From contig NZ_CP107954.1 of the NCBI RefSeq assembly GCF_036067295.1, forward strand, positions 3,162,001-3,226,000: a DNA stretch of 64,000 bases, in the 5' to 3' direction. How positions within the stretch are numbered: the first letter of the stretch is position 1; each line of letters begins with the position of its first letter. A model generated the notes under the pieces. It searched no databases and was not told where the DNA came from. It worked only from the letters and a program-made list of their open reading frames with translations. Both the position numbers and the translations under genes were made by a program. This document shows, one piece after another, positions 44,005 through 52,230 of this stretch. This stretch comes from Kribbella sp. NBC_00382 (GTDB lineage: Bacteria > Actinomycetota > Actinomycetes > Propionibacteriales > Kribbellaceae).

Positions 44005-44051
44005 CCCACCCACCCAACACACCGACCCAGCGCACGCCAGAACTGCGCACC

Positions 44052-44115
44052 TTGAACACCTAATGGCGACCTTGGACACCTAATAACTTGTTCAAGGTCG
44101 CCGTTGGGTGTTCAA
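44052..44115. repeat. Nested inverted/direct repeats built from a 20-bp unit
   Basis: A unit of the form GGCGACCTTGRACACCYAAY occurs twice on the plus strand (one copy partial) and twice on the minus strand (one partial) between 44052 and ~44122. The result is a 23-bp inverted repeat (44052-44074 with 44093-44115; two G-T pairs, 18-nt loop). It lies between the MFS gene and the SWIM/MoxR operon, so it could be a terminator for the first, a multi-site operator for the second, or both. Confidence 0.7.
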
Positions 44116-44174
44116 GGTCGCCACTTGGGGCGGTGGGGTGTGGTCGGTTGGTGGGGGTGTCGGGGGTGGGTGGC

Positions 44175-45527
44175 ATGCTCTGCGGGGTGGGTGGTTCAGC
44201 GGCTGGGGGTGTGGTGGCGGGCTGGGATGTGGAGCAGGTTTTGGCCTTGGCGCCTGATGCTGCGTCGGCCAAGGCTGGCCAGGGGCTGGCTCGTGGCGAG
44301 AAGTGGTCGGGGAGTGGGGGCTCCGAGCGGGCGCTGTGGGGGTTGTGTCAGGGGAGTGGGAAGAAGCCGTATCAGACCGTCGTCGATCTCGGTGGGCCTG
44401 CGTTCAAGTGTTCTTGTCCTAGCCGGAAGTTTCCGTGTAAGCACGCGCTGGGGTTGATGTTGCTGTCGGCCGGCGGGCAGCTCGCGGAGGGGCCTGAGCC
44501 GGAGTGGGCATCGAGCTGGATCGAGGAGCGGGCCAACAGGGCTGAGAAGGCGGCGGAGAAGGGCGAGAAGAAGCCGGGTGAGGTTGCGGATCCGTTGGCG
44601 GCTCAGCAGCGGGTGGTGCGGCGGGCTGAGCGGGTTTCGGCGGGGATGGCTGAGCTACAGAGCTGGCTCGACGACCAGGTACGCCGTGGTCTCGGCGGGT
44701 TCGAGCAACGCGGGTACTCCGAGCTGAGCCGCCTAGCCGCCCGCATGGTCGACGCGCAGGCGCCAGGAGTAGCAGGCGCCGTACGCCGAGCCGCCGCTGT
44801 CGTCGGTCGCGGCCACGGCTGGCCGGGCGAACTCCTGGAGGAGCTCTCCCTCATCCACCTCATCGTCTCCGCCCACGCCCACCTCACCGAGCTCCCACCC
44901 AGCCTCGCCGACACCGTGCAGTCCAGAATCGGCTGGACCGTCGAAACAGCCCGCGTGCTCGCAGAAGGCGAGAAGGTAGAGGACGACTGGCTGGTACTAG
45001 GCCGAGTGGTCGAGCCCGACGACCACCTGACCGTACGACGCCTGTGGCTGCGCGGCTCCAGCACTGGACGCCTGGCCCTGATCCTCACCTTCGCAGCCGG
45101 CGGCCGCCAGCTAGACCCACTCCCGGCCCGCCCCGGCGAGCTTGTCCCCGCAGTGCTCTCCTACTACCCCGGCGCCCTCCCCATGCGAGCCCTACTGACG
45201 CAAACGGCTCCCCGCCTCCCCGCCCCACGACCAGGCGGCCTCACCGCCAAGCAGGCACTCGCTTCGTACGTCGAATCGCTAGCAGCCGACCCATGGAACG
45301 AGCGCTGGCCGCTAGTACTCGCAGACGTCCGCCCAACCCCCAACGGCGACAACTGGGCGCTAGTGGACGCCAACGGTGACGCCCTCGAAGTCCTACCCGG
45401 CGTGGACCTCTGGAAGCTCCTAGCCGTCTCCGCAGGCGACCCAGTGACAGTCGCCGGCGAGTGGAATCGCGCAGGCTTCAAGCCGATGACCTGCTGGCAC
45501 GGCGAGCGCCCGGTGATCCTGTCATGA
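44175..45527 (+). CDS. SWIM zinc-finger protein, first gene of the MoxR/VWA cluster
   Basis: 450 aa from the ATG at 44175 (GTG codons at 44187 and 44208 are alternatives; family-like sequence begins at GWDVEQVLALAPDAASAKAG). Residues ~60-95 carry a SWIM zinc finger, FKCSCPSRKFPCKHALGLML (CxCx6CxH), after a β-strand region YQTVVDLGGPAF. The middle is helical (RRAERVSAGMAELQSWLDDQ; HAHLTELPPSL) and the C-terminus β-rich. SWIM domains bind DNA or protein. Overlaps the next gene by 4 bp, starting a five-gene coupled operon. Confidence 0.88.
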   Translation: MLCGVGGSAAGGVVAGWDVEQVLALAPDAASAKAGQGLARGEKWSGSGGSERALWGLCQGSGKKPYQTVVDLGGPAFKCSCPSRKFPCKHALGLMLLSAGGQLAEGPEPEWASSWIEERANRAEKAAEKGEKKPGEVADPLAAQQRVVRRAERVSAGMAELQSWLDDQVRRGLGGFEQRGYSELSRLAARMVDAQAPGVAGAVRRAAAVVGRGHGWPGELLEELSLIHLIVSAHAHLTELPPSLADTVQSRIGWTVETARVLAEGEKVEDDWLVLGRVVEPDDHLTVRRLWLRGSSTGRLALILTFAAGGRQLDPLPARPGELVPAVLSYYPGALPMRALLTQTAPRLPAPRPGGLTAKQALASYVESLAADPWNERWPLVLADVRPTPNGDNWALVDANGDALEVLPGVDLWKLLAVSAGDPVTVAGEWNRAGFKPMTCWHGERPVILS

Positions 45528-46948
45528 GGGGCTGGGACGGCCTGGTCAGCTCCGCACTGCTCGGTACCGAGCGCAGACCCCCACGCTTCGAGGAGCTCCC
45601 GCCGAAGATCCAGGAGCAACTAGGCGAAGGCGGCCTGCTCGACGCCGCCGCGCTGGCAACCCTCTACAAGCGAGCCGGCCGAGTACCGCTCGAAGGTCTA
45701 ACCCCTTTGCCCACAACGCAAGGCGAGGACAGCCCTCTCCCGAGACCAGCTGCCATCCGGAGGCTCTCCGCGATGCTCACCGGCTTCCAGACCACGGCCC
45801 TGGGCGAGTGGCTGAGAGCAGCCGACGCCAAGGGTTGGGGCGTCCCGCCGGAGCTCCTTCCTGCGCTGGCCGACTATGCGCGCAACAGGGCGGAGTACCG
45901 GCCGTTGGTGGTGAAGGCAGCCGGGCGAAGGGCTAGCTGGCTGGCAGACCTCAACCCGGACTGGCGTTTCCTGCACGAAGCCGTTGTTGAGGGCAATGAT
46001 CACTGGACCCACGGCAACCCGACCCAACGGCGCAGCTGGCTGCGGGCGCTGCGCAAGAGTGATCCGGCGGCAGCGCTGGAAGCGCTGGAAGAGGTCTGGC
46101 CTGCCGAGCCGGCCGCTGTCCGACTCGACTTCCTCGGGCTACTCGCGGCCGACCTGGCTGGCTCCAACGGTGCAGGCGGCGCCAATGCGGCGACCGACGA
46201 GGCGTTTCTGGAGCGGGCGCTGGACGATCGCTCGAAGGAGGTCCGGCGGGCGGCGGCGGGTCTGCTGCAACGCATCCCCGGTTCACAGTACGGCGTACGC
46301 ATGGCAGAGCGGGTCTGGTCGCATCTCACCGTCAGTCAAGGCGTTCTCGCTGTCGACCTGCCGACCCGATTCACCGCAGCGATGGAACATGACGGCATCG
46401 AGCCCGAGCCGCAGGAGGGATTCGGCAAGCGGGCATGGTGGTTCAGCCAGATCCTCGCCGCCGCTCCACTCGCGACGTACGAGCTCGACTACCTCAAGCT
46501 GCCCGTCGAGGGGTGCTCGCCCGAGGTGCTCCAGGTCGCCTGGGCGCAAGCGACCGTCCGTGAAGGCAATGCCGAGTGGGCCCGTGCGCTTCTCAGAGCG
46601 AACACCCGAACAGGCGGCCGGGTCGCCGAGCTACTGAAGGTCCTGCCGCCCGAGGAATGGGTGCCGGCCATCGAACTACTACGCACCCGCGTCGACATCG
46701 CCGACCTCGTAGGCGGCCTGCCGGTGCCGTGGCCGACCCCACTGGGCAATGCAGTACTAGACCAGCTCGCCAAACTAGGCAGCGATCGCCGGCACGCGCG
46801 ACTCGCGAGCATCGCGGCACGCGCAGTACCGGCCGAAGTGCTGGACCATCCGATCACCCGCGAGCCGACCGGTGAGGAAGACACCTGGCGCCGGCGCCTG
46901 GTCGAGACCCTGATTTTCCGTCGTGAGATGTACGAGGAGCTGTCATGA
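45524..46948 (+). CDS. DUF5691 family protein, second gene of the MoxR/VWA cluster
   Basis: 474 aa. WDGLVSSALLGTERRPPRFE at the N-terminus is typical of the DUF5691 family, followed by α-helical repeat-like sequence (RRSWLRALRKSDPAAALEAL; FLERALDDRSKEVRRAAAGL resembles a HEAT repeat). No catalytic motif, signal peptide or membrane segment. Probably a helical scaffold that links other proteins of the cluster. Both ends overlap neighbouring genes by 4 bp (ATGA), implying fixed stoichiometric translation. Confidence 0.87.
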   Translation: MRGWDGLVSSALLGTERRPPRFEELPPKIQEQLGEGGLLDAAALATLYKRAGRVPLEGLTPLPTTQGEDSPLPRPAAIRRLSAMLTGFQTTALGEWLRAADAKGWGVPPELLPALADYARNRAEYRPLVVKAAGRRASWLADLNPDWRFLHEAVVEGNDHWTHGNPTQRRSWLRALRKSDPAAALEALEEVWPAEPAAVRLDFLGLLAADLAGSNGAGGANAATDEAFLERALDDRSKEVRRAAAGLLQRIPGSQYGVRMAERVWSHLTVSQGVLAVDLPTRFTAAMEHDGIEPEPQEGFGKRAWWFSQILAAAPLATYELDYLKLPVEGCSPEVLQVAWAQATVREGNAEWARALLRANTRTGGRVAELLKVLPPEEWVPAIELLRTRVDIADLVGGLPVPWPTPLGNAVLDQLAKLGSDRRHARLASIAARAVPAEVLDHPITREPTGEEDTWRRRLVETLIFRREMYEELS

Positions 46949-48033
46949 CAGTGAGCCCTGAGGTACTGCGCCCGCACGCCGAGGACGAGTACGCCGTGGA
47001 GCTGGCCGCGCTGGCAGCCGCCGACGACCGGACCCGCCCGCCGTCGTGGAAGCTCTCGCCGGCCGCGGTCGTCACCTATCTCCTGGGTGGCAAGGCGGGA
47101 GACGTCGAGATCACCCCCAAGTACGTCGGCCCGCGGCGACTCGTCGAGGTCGCCGTCGCCACGCTCGCGACGGACCGCGCGTTGCTGCTGCTCGGAGTAC
47201 CGGGTACTGCGAAGACGTGGGTCAGTGAGCATCTGGCCGCGGCGATCAGTGGGGACTCGACGCTGCTCGTGCAGGGGACGGCGGGCACGGCCGAGGAGTC
47301 GATCCGGTACGGCTGGAACTACGCGCAATTGATTGCCCAAGGCCCCAGTGAGCAGGCGCTGGTGCCGAGCCCGGTGTTCCGCGCGATGGCCGACGCGAAG
47401 ATCGCCCGGATCGAGGAGCTGACCCGGATGCCGTCCGATGTCCAGGACGCCCTCATCACGATCTTGTCCGAGAAGGCGCTGCCGATCTCCGAGCTGGGCA
47501 CGGAAGTCCAGGCCCGCAAGGGATTCAACGTCATTGCCACCGCCAACGATCGCGACAAGGGCGTCAACGAACTGTCCAGCGCGCTCAGAAGAAGATTCAA
47601 CACCGTCGTACTTCCGTTGCCCGACGATGCCGAGGACGAGGTCGGGATCGTCTCCCGCCGGGTCGCGCAGCTCGGCTCGTCGCTCGAGCTGCCGCAACAG
47701 GATGACGCGCTGGAGGAGATCCGCCGCGTGGTGACCGTGTTCCGCGAGTTGAGGTCCGGACGGACGGAAGACGGCCGTACCGCCGTCAAGTCGCCGTCGG
47801 GCACGCTCTCGACGGCCGAGGCGATCAGCGTTGTCACCGGTGGACTCGCGTTGGCTGCGCATTTCGGCGACGGCGTACTGCGGTCGAATGATGTTGCCGG
47901 CGGCATCCTCGGGGCCGTGGTGAAGGACCCGTCGGCGGACCGGGTGGTCTGGTCGGAGTACCTGGAGACGGTCGTCCGCGAGCGGGACGGCTGGGCTGAC
48001 TTCTATCGGGCCTGCCGGGACATCTCCGGATGA
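46945..48033 (+). CDS. MoxR-type AAA+ ATPase
   Basis: 362 aa. Walker A: ALLLLGVPGTAKTWVSEHLA. The Walker B region reads KIARIEELTRMPSDVQDALI, where the usual D-E pair is I-E-E: the catalytic Glu is kept but the preceding Asp is not obvious. Sensor 1 FNVIATANDRDKGVNELS and arginine-finger region SSALRRRFNTVVLPLPDD are normal; a lid domain follows. MoxR ATPases pair with VWA proteins as chaperone-like remodelling machines; the matching VWA protein is two genes downstream (50204-51361). Confidence 0.92.
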   Translation: MTVSPEVLRPHAEDEYAVELAALAAADDRTRPPSWKLSPAAVVTYLLGGKAGDVEITPKYVGPRRLVEVAVATLATDRALLLLGVPGTAKTWVSEHLAAAISGDSTLLVQGTAGTAEESIRYGWNYAQLIAQGPSEQALVPSPVFRAMADAKIARIEELTRMPSDVQDALITILSEKALPISELGTEVQARKGFNVIATANDRDKGVNELSSALRRRFNTVVLPLPDDAEDEVGIVSRRVAQLGSSLELPQQDDALEEIRRVVTVFRELRSGRTEDGRTAVKSPSGTLSTAEAISVVTGGLALAAHFGDGVLRSNDVAGGILGAVVKDPSADRVVWSEYLETVVRERDGWADFYRACRDISG

Positions 48034-50207
48034 CCGTCCACCTCTTCGGCATCAGGCACCACGGTCCGGGGTCCGCCCGGGCGCTCGCGGCTGCCCTGGC
48101 GGAGTTGCAGCCGGACATCGTGCTGATCGAGGGACCGCCCGAGGCCGACAAGGTGGTCGAGCTGGCGGCCTCGGAGGAGATGGTGCCGCCGGTCGCGCTG
48201 CTGGCCTACGCGGCCGACGATTCGACCAGGGCTGCCTTCTGGCCGTTCGCTGTCTTCAGCCCGGAGTGGCAGGCGATCAAGCATGCCTTGGCGGACGGCG
48301 TACCGGTGCGGTTCTGCGATCTGCCGGCGGCGTATCAGTTCGGCAGCTCGGGAAGAGAAGATCGCCGGGGGATGTCGGCGGATCCGTTGGCGACGCTGGC
48401 CGCGGCCGGTGGGTATGACGATCCCGAGCGCTGGTGGGACGACGTGATCGAGCACCGGCGGGACGGCGCCGAGCCGTTCACGGTGATCGCCGAGGCGATG
48501 TCCGAGCTGCGGCGTGATGACGAGGCGACCGGGCGGGAGGCCCAGCGCGAGGCGTACATGCGGACAACCTTGCGCAAGGCAATCAAAGAAGGCTTCGAAC
48601 GGATCGCCGTCGTCTGCGGCGCCTGGCATGTCCCCGCACTGCAAGCTCCGTTGCCGACAGCAACTTACGATCAGCGGATCCTGAAGGGCTTGCCGAAGCG
48701 GAAGGTCGCCTGTACCTGGGTGCCATGGACGCATGGCCGGCTGGCAACCGCCAGCGGGTACGGCGCCGGCGTGACCTCGCCCGGTTGGTACCACCACCTC
48801 TTCACCGCGCCTGACCAGATCACCACTCGCTGGCTGACGAAGGTCGCTCAGGTACTGCGCAAAGAGGATCTCCCGGTGTCGAGTGCGCACGTCATCGAGG
48901 CCGTGCGGCTGGCCGATGCCCTTGCTGCGTTGAGGGAACGGCCCCTCGCCGGGTTGAGTGAGGTCACGGAAGCCACCCGAGCGGTGATGTGTGGCGGCAA
49001 CGACGTACTGCTCAACCTGGTCACCCGCGAGGCCGTGGTCGGCGAGTTGCTCGGCCAAGTACCGGCGGAGACTCCCCAGGCGCCCGTGGCTGCTGACCTG
49101 GCTGCACAAGCCCGACGACTGCGGCTGAAGCGCGACGCCGCCGAGCGAGTCGTCGAGCTGGATCTGCGGAAGCCGAACGATCTGGAGAAGTCGCGGCTGC
49201 TGCACCGGCTCAGGATCCTCGGCATCGACTGGGGCGTGCCGACCGCCGACGAGCGACGCAATCAAGGCACCTTCCGCGAGACCTGGACGCTTGCCTGGGA
49301 CCCGGGACTGGAGGTCGATCTCGTTGCCGCCGGCGCCCATGGCACGACCGTGCTCGGTGCCGCGACGACGACGATGCTCAAGGCTGCTGAGGATTCGGCG
49401 ACTTTGGCCGAGGTCACCTCGGCGTTGGAGCGTTCGCTGCTGGCCGACCTCTCGGACGCGTTGCCGACGCTGCTCCAAGGCGTCGACACCCGCGCGGCCA
49501 AGGATGCCGATGTCGGGCACCTGATGGCCGCGTTGCCCGCCCTCGCGCGCTCCGCCCGGTACGGCGATGTGCGCGGCTCATCAGCGGAAGGCCTCGGTCA
49601 GGTCGCCGCCAGGATGGTCTCGCGCGTGTGCGCAGGACTCGGCCGGACCGTGCACGGACTCGACCCCGAAGCAGCCGCCAAGGTCCTCGAACTCATCGAC
49701 GACGTCCAGGACGCGACGGCCTTGCTGGACGAGGCGATCCGCGAAGAATGGCTCGCGACCCTGCAAGGCTTGAGTGACCGCGCATCGGTACCGCCGTTGA
49801 TCGCCGGCCGCCTCACCCGCCTCATGCTCGACACCTCGCGGCTGGAAGCGTCCGAGGTTGCGCTGAGGCTTGGCCGCGCACTGTCACCCGGTACGCCGAC
49901 AGCCGACGCGGCGGGCTATGTCGAGGGCTTCCTCGCTGGTGGCGGCCTCTTGCTGGTGCACGACGAACGACTGCTGGCCCTGGTCGACACGTGGCTCGCG
50001 GCGATCCCCGACGAAGCGTTCCTGGAGGCGTTGCCCTTGCTCCGCCGGACCTTCGGCACCTTCGCCTCACCAGAACGACGCTCGATCGGCGACCGTGCCC
50101 GATCACTAGGTGACCCGGCTGCCGCGGTCATTGCCGATGACAACGAGATAGACCAGTTGCTGGCGGCATCGGTTCTCCCCGTCGTCAAGCGATTGCTAGG
50201 GGTGTGA
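48030..50207 (+). CDS. DUF5682 family protein, possible TraB/ChaN-fold enzyme
   Basis: 725 aa. The N-terminal ~230 residues show motifs reminiscent of the TraB/ChaN/EreA-like superfamily: HLFGIRHHGPGSARALAAAL, DIVLIEGPPEADKVVELA and IAVVCGAWHVPAL (conserved GxxH-type blocks with His and Glu). A putative hydrolase or haem/metal site is therefore possible, which is my inference. The C-terminal ~450 residues are helical with no recognised domain (VLELIDDVQDATALLDEAIR). Coupled by 4-bp overlaps to both neighbours; the largest protein of the cluster. Confidence 0.88.
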   Translation: MTVHLFGIRHHGPGSARALAAALAELQPDIVLIEGPPEADKVVELAASEEMVPPVALLAYAADDSTRAAFWPFAVFSPEWQAIKHALADGVPVRFCDLPAAYQFGSSGREDRRGMSADPLATLAAAGGYDDPERWWDDVIEHRRDGAEPFTVIAEAMSELRRDDEATGREAQREAYMRTTLRKAIKEGFERIAVVCGAWHVPALQAPLPTATYDQRILKGLPKRKVACTWVPWTHGRLATASGYGAGVTSPGWYHHLFTAPDQITTRWLTKVAQVLRKEDLPVSSAHVIEAVRLADALAALRERPLAGLSEVTEATRAVMCGGNDVLLNLVTREAVVGELLGQVPAETPQAPVAADLAAQARRLRLKRDAAERVVELDLRKPNDLEKSRLLHRLRILGIDWGVPTADERRNQGTFRETWTLAWDPGLEVDLVAAGAHGTTVLGAATTTMLKAAEDSATLAEVTSALERSLLADLSDALPTLLQGVDTRAAKDADVGHLMAALPALARSARYGDVRGSSAEGLGQVAARMVSRVCAGLGRTVHGLDPEAAAKVLELIDDVQDATALLDEAIREEWLATLQGLSDRASVPPLIAGRLTRLMLDTSRLEASEVALRLGRALSPGTPTADAAGYVEGFLAGGGLLLVHDERLLALVDTWLAAIPDEAFLEALPLLRRTFGTFASPERRSIGDRARSLGDPAAAVIADDNEIDQLLAASVLPVVKRLLGV

Positions 50208-51361
50208 CGATGGCGGACGACGAACGCATGCGGCGCTGGCGGATGGTCCTCGGCAGCGAGGCCGACCCGGAGACCGGTACGGAACTTTCCACCTCCGACC
50301 GCTCCATCGACGCCGCGCTGGCCGCCTTGTACGACGCCGAGCGAGGCGAACCGGGTACCAAGAGATCCGCCGGTCTGGGGTCGAGTGCGCCACGCGTCGC
50401 CCGCTGGCTGGGCGACATCCGGCAGTACTTCCCCAGCACCGTCGTCCAGGTGATGCAGCGCGACGCGGTCGAGCGCCTCGGCATCACCCGGATGCTGATG
50501 GAACCCGAGCTGCTCAACGCGGTCGAGCCCGACGTCCACCTGGTCAGCACGCTGCTCGCGCTCAACGAAGTCATGCCCGAGGAGACCAAGCACACCGCCC
50601 GCGAGGTGGTCGGCCGGGTCGTCGCCGAGTTGGAGGCCCGACTGGCCGAGCGCACGCGAGCAGCGGTGAGCGGTGCACTCGACCGAGCCGGCCGGACCGG
50701 GCGGCCGCGGCACTCGGACATCGACTGGGATCGGACGATTCGCGCCAATCTCAAGCACTTCTCGCCGACGCTCGGCACGATCGTCCCGGATCGGTTGGTC
50801 GGGTATGCCCGGCGCAACCACAGTGTGCAGCGGGACGTAGTACTGGCGATCGATCAGTCGGGGTCGATGGCCGAATCTGTCGTCTACGCGAGCCTGTTCG
50901 GGGCGGTACTGGGCTCGATGCGCGCCTTGCGGACGAGCCTGGTCGTCTTCGACACGGCCGTCGTCGACCTCACCGAGGAGCTGGACGACCCGGTGGACGT
51001 GCTCTTCGGCACCCAGCTCGGTGGTGGCACGGACATCAACCGCGCCGTCGCGTACTGCGAACAGCTCATCACCCGGCCGGGCGAGACGGTGATGGTGCTC
51101 ATCAGCGACCTGTACGAAGGCGGCATCCGCGAGGAACTGCTCAGAAGGGCCCGCAATCTGGTCGAGTCCGGCGTCCAGCTGATCGCGTTGCTGGCGCTCT
51201 CGGACTCGGGCACTCCGTCGTACGACGCCGAGAACGCGGCTGCCCTCGCGGACCTCGGCGTACCGACCTTCGCCTGTACCCCCGAGCTCTTCCCCGACCT
51301 GATGGCGGCCGCGATCCGCCGCGACGACATCTCCGCCTGGGCAGCGTCGAATATCGATTGA
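50204..51361 (+). CDS. VWA-domain protein, partner of the MoxR ATPase
   Basis: 385 aa; GTG at 50204 overlaps the previous stop (GTGA), though the ATG at 50210 has a better-spaced AGGGG. N-terminal half is helical (WLGDIRQYFPSTVVQVMQRD; TKHTAREVVGRVVAELEARL). The C-terminal half is a VWA domain with an intact MIDAS metal site: DVVLAIDQSGSMAESVVYAS (DxSxS), QLGGGTDINRAVAYC (Thr) and VMVLISDLYEGGIREELL (Asp). Expected to bind a target via Mg2+ and to act as client adaptor for the MoxR ATPase. Last gene of the cluster. Confidence 0.92.
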   Translation: MTMADDERMRRWRMVLGSEADPETGTELSTSDRSIDAALAALYDAERGEPGTKRSAGLGSSAPRVARWLGDIRQYFPSTVVQVMQRDAVERLGITRMLMEPELLNAVEPDVHLVSTLLALNEVMPEETKHTAREVVGRVVAELEARLAERTRAAVSGALDRAGRTGRPRHSDIDWDRTIRANLKHFSPTLGTIVPDRLVGYARRNHSVQRDVVLAIDQSGSMAESVVYASLFGAVLGSMRALRTSLVVFDTAVVDLTEELDDPVDVLFGTQLGGGTDINRAVAYCEQLITRPGETVMVLISDLYEGGIREELLRRARNLVESGVQLIALLALSDSGTPSYDAENAAALADLGVPTFACTPELFPDLMAAAIRRDDISAWAASNID

Positions 51362-51384: not shown

Positions 51385-52230
51385 ATGCGGATCGTGACGA
51401 TGAACGCCTTCCTGCCCGGCTACCACAACATCGCCGGGTGGGCCGAGGAGCACGGCCACGAGATCGTGCTGGTGGTGACGCCACCAGCCGGTGCCAGCGA
51501 CCGGTACGACGCGGCTGCGCCGCCGTTCGTGGTCGGACTGCCGCGGACCGCGAACGTACTGGTCACCAGCAAGCTCAAGACGGTGGCCGCGCCGGTGATC
51601 GCCGCGCTGGAGCCCGATCTGGTCATCTCGGCCGCGTTCCCTCGGCTGATCCCCGCAGAGATCCTGAAGATCCCGACGTACGGAGCGGTGAACCTGCACC
51701 CGTCGCCGCTACCGGCCGGGCGGGGACCGAATCCGGTCCGGCTGGTCTACGAAGGCGCCACCACGGTGGGCGCGACGCTGCATCGGACCGAGGCCGAGTT
51801 CGACACCGGCGCGATCCTGAGTCAACGCGAGCGGCCGTTGCCCGAGAACGTCACCGGTCCGGCGATCTTCCAGGCCTGGCGCGAGATGCTGCGCGAAGTA
51901 CTGGTCGAAGGTGCCGCGCGGGCGCTTGCTGGTGAGTCTGGGACTCCGCAAGATCCGGCGGTGGCTTCGGAGGCGCCGATGTTCACGCCGGAGGAAGAGG
52001 TGCTGCGGCTGAGCGATCCGGGCGCGGTACTGGTCCGGAAGTCCGCCGCTCTCAACGTGCTCGCCGCGAAGAGCAAGGTGATCGTGGCCGGGACGAAGCA
52101 GTCCGTTCGCCGGATCGAGCTCGTATCGGCCGGTGAGGAGTCGTCGCAGGCGGGCGAGATCATCACGTACCACACAGACGGCTGGACGGTCCGGTCCGGC
52201 GACGGAGTGGTCAGGTTGTACACGACCTGA
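51385..52230 (+). CDS. Formyltransferase-family protein (Fmt-like)
   Basis: 281 aa. The N-terminal Rossmann-like domain carries the formyl-transfer signature: LEPDLVISAAFPRLIPAEIL, YGAVNLHPSPLPAGRGPNPV (Asn-His pair) and LHRTEAEFDTGAILSQRERP (catalytic Asp). A C-terminal domain (residues ~200-281, VRKSAALNVLAAKSKVIVAG) is shorter than in Fmt. It would move a formyl group from 10-formyl-tetrahydrofolate to an amine; acceptor may be a sugar nucleotide or other amine rather than Met-tRNA. Lies 23 bp after the VWA gene, so may share its transcript. Confidence 0.85.
   Translation: MRIVTMNAFLPGYHNIAGWAEEHGHEIVLVVTPPAGASDRYDAAAPPFVVGLPRTANVLVTSKLKTVAAPVIAALEPDLVISAAFPRLIPAEILKIPTYGAVNLHPSPLPAGRGPNPVRLVYEGATTVGATLHRTEAEFDTGAILSQRERPLPENVTGPAIFQAWREMLREVLVEGAARALAGESGTPQDPAVASEAPMFTPEEEVLRLSDPGAVLVRKSAALNVLAAKSKVIVAGTKQSVRRIELVSAGEESSQAGEIITYHTDGWTVRSGDGVVRLYTT

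Follow-up and report, generated by a model that had tools for sequence, protein, structure and literature searches.

Two described systems offer mechanistic precedents for the locus reported here. NorQ is a hexamer whose pore is plugged by the VWA domain of NorD, the metal-ion-dependent adhesion site (MIDAS) of which likely contacts the target; the iron of cNOR is put in place by NorQD (PMC9976466). Rubisco is activated by CbbQ together with its partner (PMC11432383). A five-gene cluster encoding a MoxR ATPase and a VWA protein, together with a SWIM zinc-finger protein and members of families DUF5691 and DUF5682, was examined in 64,000 nucleotides of Kribbella sp. NBC_00382 (contig NZ_CP107954.1, positions 3,162,001 to 3,226,000; hereafter the window, whose numbering is used for its features). 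The cluster is a conserved module with a counterpart in Escherichia coli K-12.

The five genes lie in a row on the plus strand, and were confirmed from their open reading frames (ORFs) and by Pfam models, all five proteins scoring above the curated cut-offs. The SWIM protein (44175..45527, 450 amino acids; Pfam SWIM 25.1 bits, cut-off 19.6, E 1e-5) carries the CxCx6CxH zinc-finger motif CSCPSRKFPCKH at 44409-44444, and is followed by DUF5691 (45524..46948, 474 amino acids; 390 bits, E 3e-116). The MoxR AAA+ ATPase (46945..48033, 362 amino acids; Pfam AAA_5 E 2e-37) has the Walker A sequence GVPGTAKT at 47194-47217. DUF5682 (48030..50207, 725 amino acids; 908 bits, E 6e-273) comes next, and the row ends with a VWA_CoxE protein, a predicted co-chaperone (50204..51361, 385 amino acids; E 3e-54), with the MIDAS sequence DQSGSM at 50852-50869. 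Successive genes overlap by 4 bp at all four junctions (ATGA, ATGA, ATGA and GTGA). These families, the common strand and the overlaps had been proposed in an initial annotation made from the sequence alone, and all were borne out.

A conserved module and its E. coli counterpart

An alignment of DUF5682 was searched against 84,980 species genomes, giving at least 593 stretches, of which at least 578 were confirmed, and the best 80, a choice that favours the window's own architecture (type A), were developed into loci whose genes were assigned with hidden Markov models built in this analysis. As only DUF5682 was used for searching, the co-occurrence of the other four families was not built in. 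All five genes were found together in 71 of the 80 loci, all from other species; the window's order and strand were kept in 59 of these and the SWIM-DUF5691 pair was inverted, as in Streptomyces, in 12. Of the nine incomplete loci, five sit at the end of a contig or close to it, and the genomes of eight of the nine contain DUF5691. Twelve phyla are represented among the 80 loci (Actinomycetota, Pseudomonadota, Bacteroidota, Planctomycetota, Cyanobacteriota, Melainabacteria, Chloroflexota, Thermomicrobiota, Acidobacteriota, Armatimonadota, Thermodesulfobacteriota and Verrucomicrobiota), with occurrences in Deinococcota and Fusobacteriota coming from plasmid-collection records outside this set. 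Among 247 Actinomycetota genomes DUF5682 was detected in 19 and DUF5691 above its cut-off in 17, all within those 19 (hypergeometric P ~2e-24, genomes treated as independent). With 71 of 80 loci complete and this overlap in Actinomycetota, the clustering is far beyond chance and SWIM-DUF5691-MoxR-DUF5682-VWA is a conserved module. The five families thus do co-occur in distant phyla, which the initial annotation had named as a check on its reading.

The closest relatives are in Kribbella, with 85-87% identity in DUF5682, and all 38 genomes of the genus carry DUF5682 in one type-A-like copy, one of them with an additional diverged copy. Plasmid copies were seen in 36 of 72,556 records, several on very large replicons; on a Methylosinus trichosporium plasmid (L053, 11220-12388) the VWA match runs over three overlapping ORFs and no VWA gene is annotated in the record. 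Median pairwise identity falls from 71% for MoxR through 62% (VWA), 46% (DUF5682) and 38% (SWIM) to 29% for DUF5691, and the distance matrices of the five proteins correlate (r 0.77-0.92, shared species history included). Walker A is retained in 104/104 loci, the MIDAS in 102/105 and the SWIM motif in 84/87 type-A loci.

A control search with Pfam DUF5682 matched in E. coli, where the K-12 gene is yehM. It stands in a row of yehL (MoxR), yehM (DUF5682), yehP (VWA_CoxE) and yehQ (SWIM), which is the same module without DUF5691, with a WGR gene and DUF4132 genes adjoining. The window proteins match YehL at 42% identity (E 1e-79, 236 bits), YehM at 29% (E 7e-42) and YehP at 38% (E 4e-83); the likeness of the SWIM protein to YehQ, and so of type-A to E. 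coli-type SWIM proteins, does not extend beyond the zinc finger. RavA, the other E. coli MoxR, scores only 22 bits against the window MoxR. Since the yehL-yehM-yehP-yehQ row is the same module, the window MoxR is placed by sequence, in comparison with YehL and RavA only, in the named but uncharacterised YehL subfamily. This form is found in 5306 of 5426 complete E. coli genomes, almost always as a single chromosomal copy, and it is dispensable, because the genome-reduced strain DGF-298 lacks yehI to yehQ (PMC10652928). On a conjugative IncF E. coli plasmid (L058, 383-14394) the chromosomal yeh region recurs as a copy close to IS26, with a long DUF4132 frame in the place of yehH, an annotated pseudogene in K-12. 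Neither a functional study of yehLMPQ nor a mention of DUF5682 or DUF5691 was found in the 5.39 million papers searched, and part of the yehL-type neighbourhood is probably already familiar to MoxR specialists. The initial annotation had presented a cluster without an established function; it had missed that the K-12 row is the same module, which means that the cluster is no orphan.

Four architectures were distinguished. Type B, DUF4132-MoxR-DUF5682-VWA-SWIM, occurs in E. coli, Agrobacterium (with DUF4132 relocated), Iodobacter and one actinomycete genome; type C consists of MoxR and a single ORF holding DUF5682 and VWA, one example being preceded by DUF4132 and followed by a weak SWIM match; type D has diverged further. 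In a quick tree, types B, C and D each formed one side of a fully supported branch. The DUF5682-VWA fusion was seen in L042, L044, L045, L050 and L059, which represent one actinomycete lineage, and SWIM-DUF5691 is a single ORF in nine loci from several phyla (L036, L041, L052, L061, L066, L068, L084, L112 and L118). A fold of the fused SWIM-DUF5691 was set aside, as the alignment misplaced part of DUF5691. In Fusobacterium the DUF5691 slot is occupied by a 637-amino-acid protein without a Pfam family, and no homology of this protein to DUF5691 or DUF4132 was detected; nor was any found between DUF5691 and DUF4132, which takes a similar slot in E. coli-type loci (hhalign P 0.28). We read this as a core of MoxR, DUF5682, VWA and, in most cases, SWIM, whose large partner can be exchanged. 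Both scaffold families occur at one locus in Niastella populi, where a DUF4132 gene directly follows a complete type-A cluster (L093, 12453-15407), and the actinomycete genomes G023, G129 and G162 (L045, L046 and L048) hold two to three DUF5682 modules of differing architecture. Esterase, cyclase, IS605-type transposase and lectin-like genes were seen inserted between MoxR and DUF5682, and no such insert recurs; in Kribbella steppae an IS605/TnpB-like ORF separates the two genes (L108, 7700-8995).

The DUF5682 and DUF5691 proteins

The AlphaFold2 model of DUF5682 (pLDDT, a per-residue confidence score, 90; pTM, its whole-fold equivalent, 0.85) is alpha/beta over residues ~1-260, encoded at 48030-48809, and mainly helical thereafter. 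The order of strands and helices in this N-terminal part, a putative hydrolase domain, fits the parallel beta-sheet core of the Tiki/TraB/ChaN fold, but no protein of that fold was among the best 50 of 805 Foldseek matches to the whole model. Across 82 sequences from the four architectures H10, E34, S77, E79, D97, W136, E141, R161, R173, E174, M177 and H200 are invariant; H10, S77 and E79 overlap the two patterns used to search for DUF5682 and are thus partly selected for, H10 by one of them, whereas E34, H200 and the remaining residues are independent of them. H10 and H200 each sit in a GxxH block; E34 comes after the second strand.

An N-terminal profile scored 36.2 against ChaN (P 2e-4), where block-shuffled profiles reached at most 17.9, with none of 100 as high, and the reversed profile 13.1. 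Against TraB it scored 25.5 (P 0.01; block-shuffled maximum 20.6, 0/100 as high) and against erythromycin esterase (Ere) 23.4 (P 0.03; maximum 24.6, 2/100 as high). As a yardstick of accepted kinship, ChaN against TraB gave 32.6, below the score of DUF5682 against ChaN. The alignments place REAxMR on the RDxxMA-type signature of Ere, TraB and ChaN, and CGAWH on the GxxH of TraB and ChaN. From these comparisons the DUF5682 N-terminus is likely a diverged domain of the Tiki/ChaN/TraB superfamily with an invariant His/Glu/Asp/Arg/His site, a kinship that is not proven. The conserved site and the ChaN match support what the initial annotation had suspected from a few N-terminal blocks; of the structural check that it had suggested, the site was present and the fold was not confirmed by structure search.

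The model of DUF5691 (pLDDT 90) is nearly all helix, and its best Foldseek matches were the ARM/HEAT solenoids of importins, SF3b and PP2A scaffolds, at E ~1e-2 with none at or below 0.001. A helical solenoid of HEAT/ARM-like type is its probable fold, in line with the HEAT-type scaffold first suggested, while the Pfam HEAT models themselves stayed below cut-off (13.8 against 27.7 bits).

A proposed machine and its alternatives

The observations establish five co-inherited proteins encoded by a fixed operon, with intact ATPase, MIDAS and zinc-finger motifs and a counterpart in E. coli. We propose, with a probability of about one half, that they form one protein machine, a MoxR-VWA system of the YehL class, in which DUF5682 processes targets under ATP control, and which is probably cytoplasmic. 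MoxR would form a hexameric ring with its pore plugged by the VWA partner, as in NorQD; SWIM and DUF5691 would bring in the target, a protein or a nucleoprotein; hydrolysis of ATP would remodel this target or the complex; and DUF5682, kept beside the VWA protein, could then hydrolyse one of the target's bonds. We propose that targets are positioned or opened for DUF5682 by the motor because, the ATPase apart, no other part is a predicted enzyme, and because DUF5682 is the only large part that all architectures retain along with MoxR and VWA, to the latter of which it can be fused. The whole would be an ATP-controlled processing enzyme for stress or maintenance rather than an accessory defence system. 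The parts of the machine sketched in the initial annotation stand, namely a MoxR-VWA core, a SWIM protein, a helical scaffold and a ChaN/TraB-related DUF5682; the roles of motor, sensor and effector given to them we still infer.

Several points weigh against this proposal. In DUF5682 the Glu of GExH, which opens the 2His/2Glu motif described for RRSP, is replaced by Arg in 79 of 82 sequences (GIRH) and by Cys in three; the TraB proteins examined also do without it (GTxH). With the full DUF5682 model, Foldseek gave no match in the PDB at E<=0.001, and the best 50 of its 805 matches comprised helical repeats and other largely helical proteins, with no Tiki/TraB/ChaN fold among them; the whole-model search was dominated by the helical tail. 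Nor did the DUF5682 sequence match any PDB entry. Strict invariance of the residues could equally reflect binding of a metal or ligand without catalysis. The processing of an external target is something we infer from a gene fusion and gene neighbourhood only, and we know of no substrate, activity, complex or phenotype for the machine.

The closest competitor takes DUF5682 as the client. MoxR-VWA would then be a dedicated activase or metal-inserting chaperone that activates DUF5682 once, after which the enzyme acts independently, and SWIM-DUF5691 would help to recognise the apo-enzyme. NorQD on cNOR and CbbQ on Rubisco are precedents, and a metal could be bound at the His/Glu/Asp site; however, the DUF5682-VWA fusion of one lineage is more readily expected of a permanent partner than of a transient client, and it would be unusual for a single client to have four helper genes. 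We consider this possible but rather unlikely.

SWIM is a zinc finger able to bind nucleic acid, and as such a reader it could direct the machine to DNA- or RNA-bound proteins, for example after DNA damage. Such a role in nucleic-acid maintenance finds some encouragement in the WGR and DUF4132 genes beside yehLMPQ; molR has been described as a LexA-regulon gene and one WGR and one DUF4132 gene rise upon DdrO depletion in Deinococcus radiodurans (PMC8533742). These links to DNA damage concern partners that are absent from the window's variant, and DUF5682 resembles protein or ester hydrolases, not nucleases, which makes this reading improbable.

Defence had been raised as a possible role in the initial annotation, and an anti-phage or biological-conflict system akin to the vWA-MoxR ternary systems would share their MoxR-VWA logic (PMC7159879), be patchy at phylum level (19 of 247 Actinomycetota genomes) and sometimes be plasmid-borne. 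No PADLOC model fits the cluster, with only weak AAA matches to MoxR (E 0.007 or worse); the bpMoxR model gave 24.2 bits on the window MoxR (cut-off 27); Pfam recognised no third component of the ternary systems in the cluster; and the module was found in 0 of 2.9 million viral contigs. One record labelled 'Bacteriophage sp.' (MT835988, L060) holds MoxR-DUF5682-VWA with genes for an MgsA-type ATPase, a polysaccharide deacetylase, DUF5716 and DUF5717, and was rejected as a phage-borne copy, since its surroundings look like a bacterial chromosome fragment. Because the module belongs to the core genome of the genus (38/38) and, in its E. coli form, of E. coli (5306/5426), is absent from viral contigs and fits no PADLOC model, its distribution is what would be expected of a maintenance system and not of a defence island (flanks were not systematically scanned for defence genes), and the anti-phage reading is the least probable of all.

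If the machine proposed here is real, it may, tentatively, be a widespread and ancient one, in which hydrolases of a new Tiki-fold family (DUF5682) are driven by a MoxR ring with its VWA adaptor and interchangeable scaffolds (DUF5691, DUF4132, the 637-amino-acid Fusobacterium protein) choose the targets, an ATP-dependent processing that would have gone unrecognised in K-12. The unit is kept across ~12 phyla and is core in E. coli, yet has hardly been studied, and the E. coli counterpart and putative active site make an obscure actinobacterial cluster testable in K-12.

Flanking sequence and comparison with described systems

A transporter gene ends ~170 bp before the SWIM gene, and a formyltransferase gene (51385-52230) starts 24 bp downstream of the VWA gene. 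The latter has no counterpart in the flanks of two Kribbella relatives (L107 and L108), whereas other neighbours match, and the unit is therefore counted as five genes. Before the SWIM gene, an imperfect palindrome at 44035-44132 is made of ACCTTGAACACC/GGTGTTCAAGGTCGCC repeats. It is a dispersed repeat, GGTGTTCAAGGTCGCC having 19 exact copies across the genome and none in a backwards control, and is thus unlikely to be an operator.

DUF5682 has in common with the Tiki/TraB/ChaN/erythromycin-esterase superfamily a pair of GxxH blocks, the second of them preceded by R(D/E)xxM, and a Glu that follows strand two; unlike these proteins it has GIRH for GExH and a long helical C-terminus, and is tied to MoxR-VWA. 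The vWA-MoxR ternary conflict systems (VMAP, iSTAND, beta-propeller) resemble the window in joining MoxR-VWA to a third protein, and the VWA proteins of iSTAND systems tend to carry a CoxE-type N-terminal domain; the window differs in being core rather than accessory and in that Pfam recognises none of their third components. NorQD, CbbQO and RavA-ViaA likewise encode a MoxR ATPase together with a MIDAS-bearing VWA protein, to which the window adds the fixed partners SWIM, DUF5691 and DUF5682, with a MoxR at only 22 bits to RavA. The yehL-yehM-yehP-yehQ row differs from the window in having its SWIM gene at the operon end, no DUF5691 and the DUF4132 gene yehI just upstream, and matches it in its adjacent MoxR, DUF5682, VWA_CoxE and SWIM genes.

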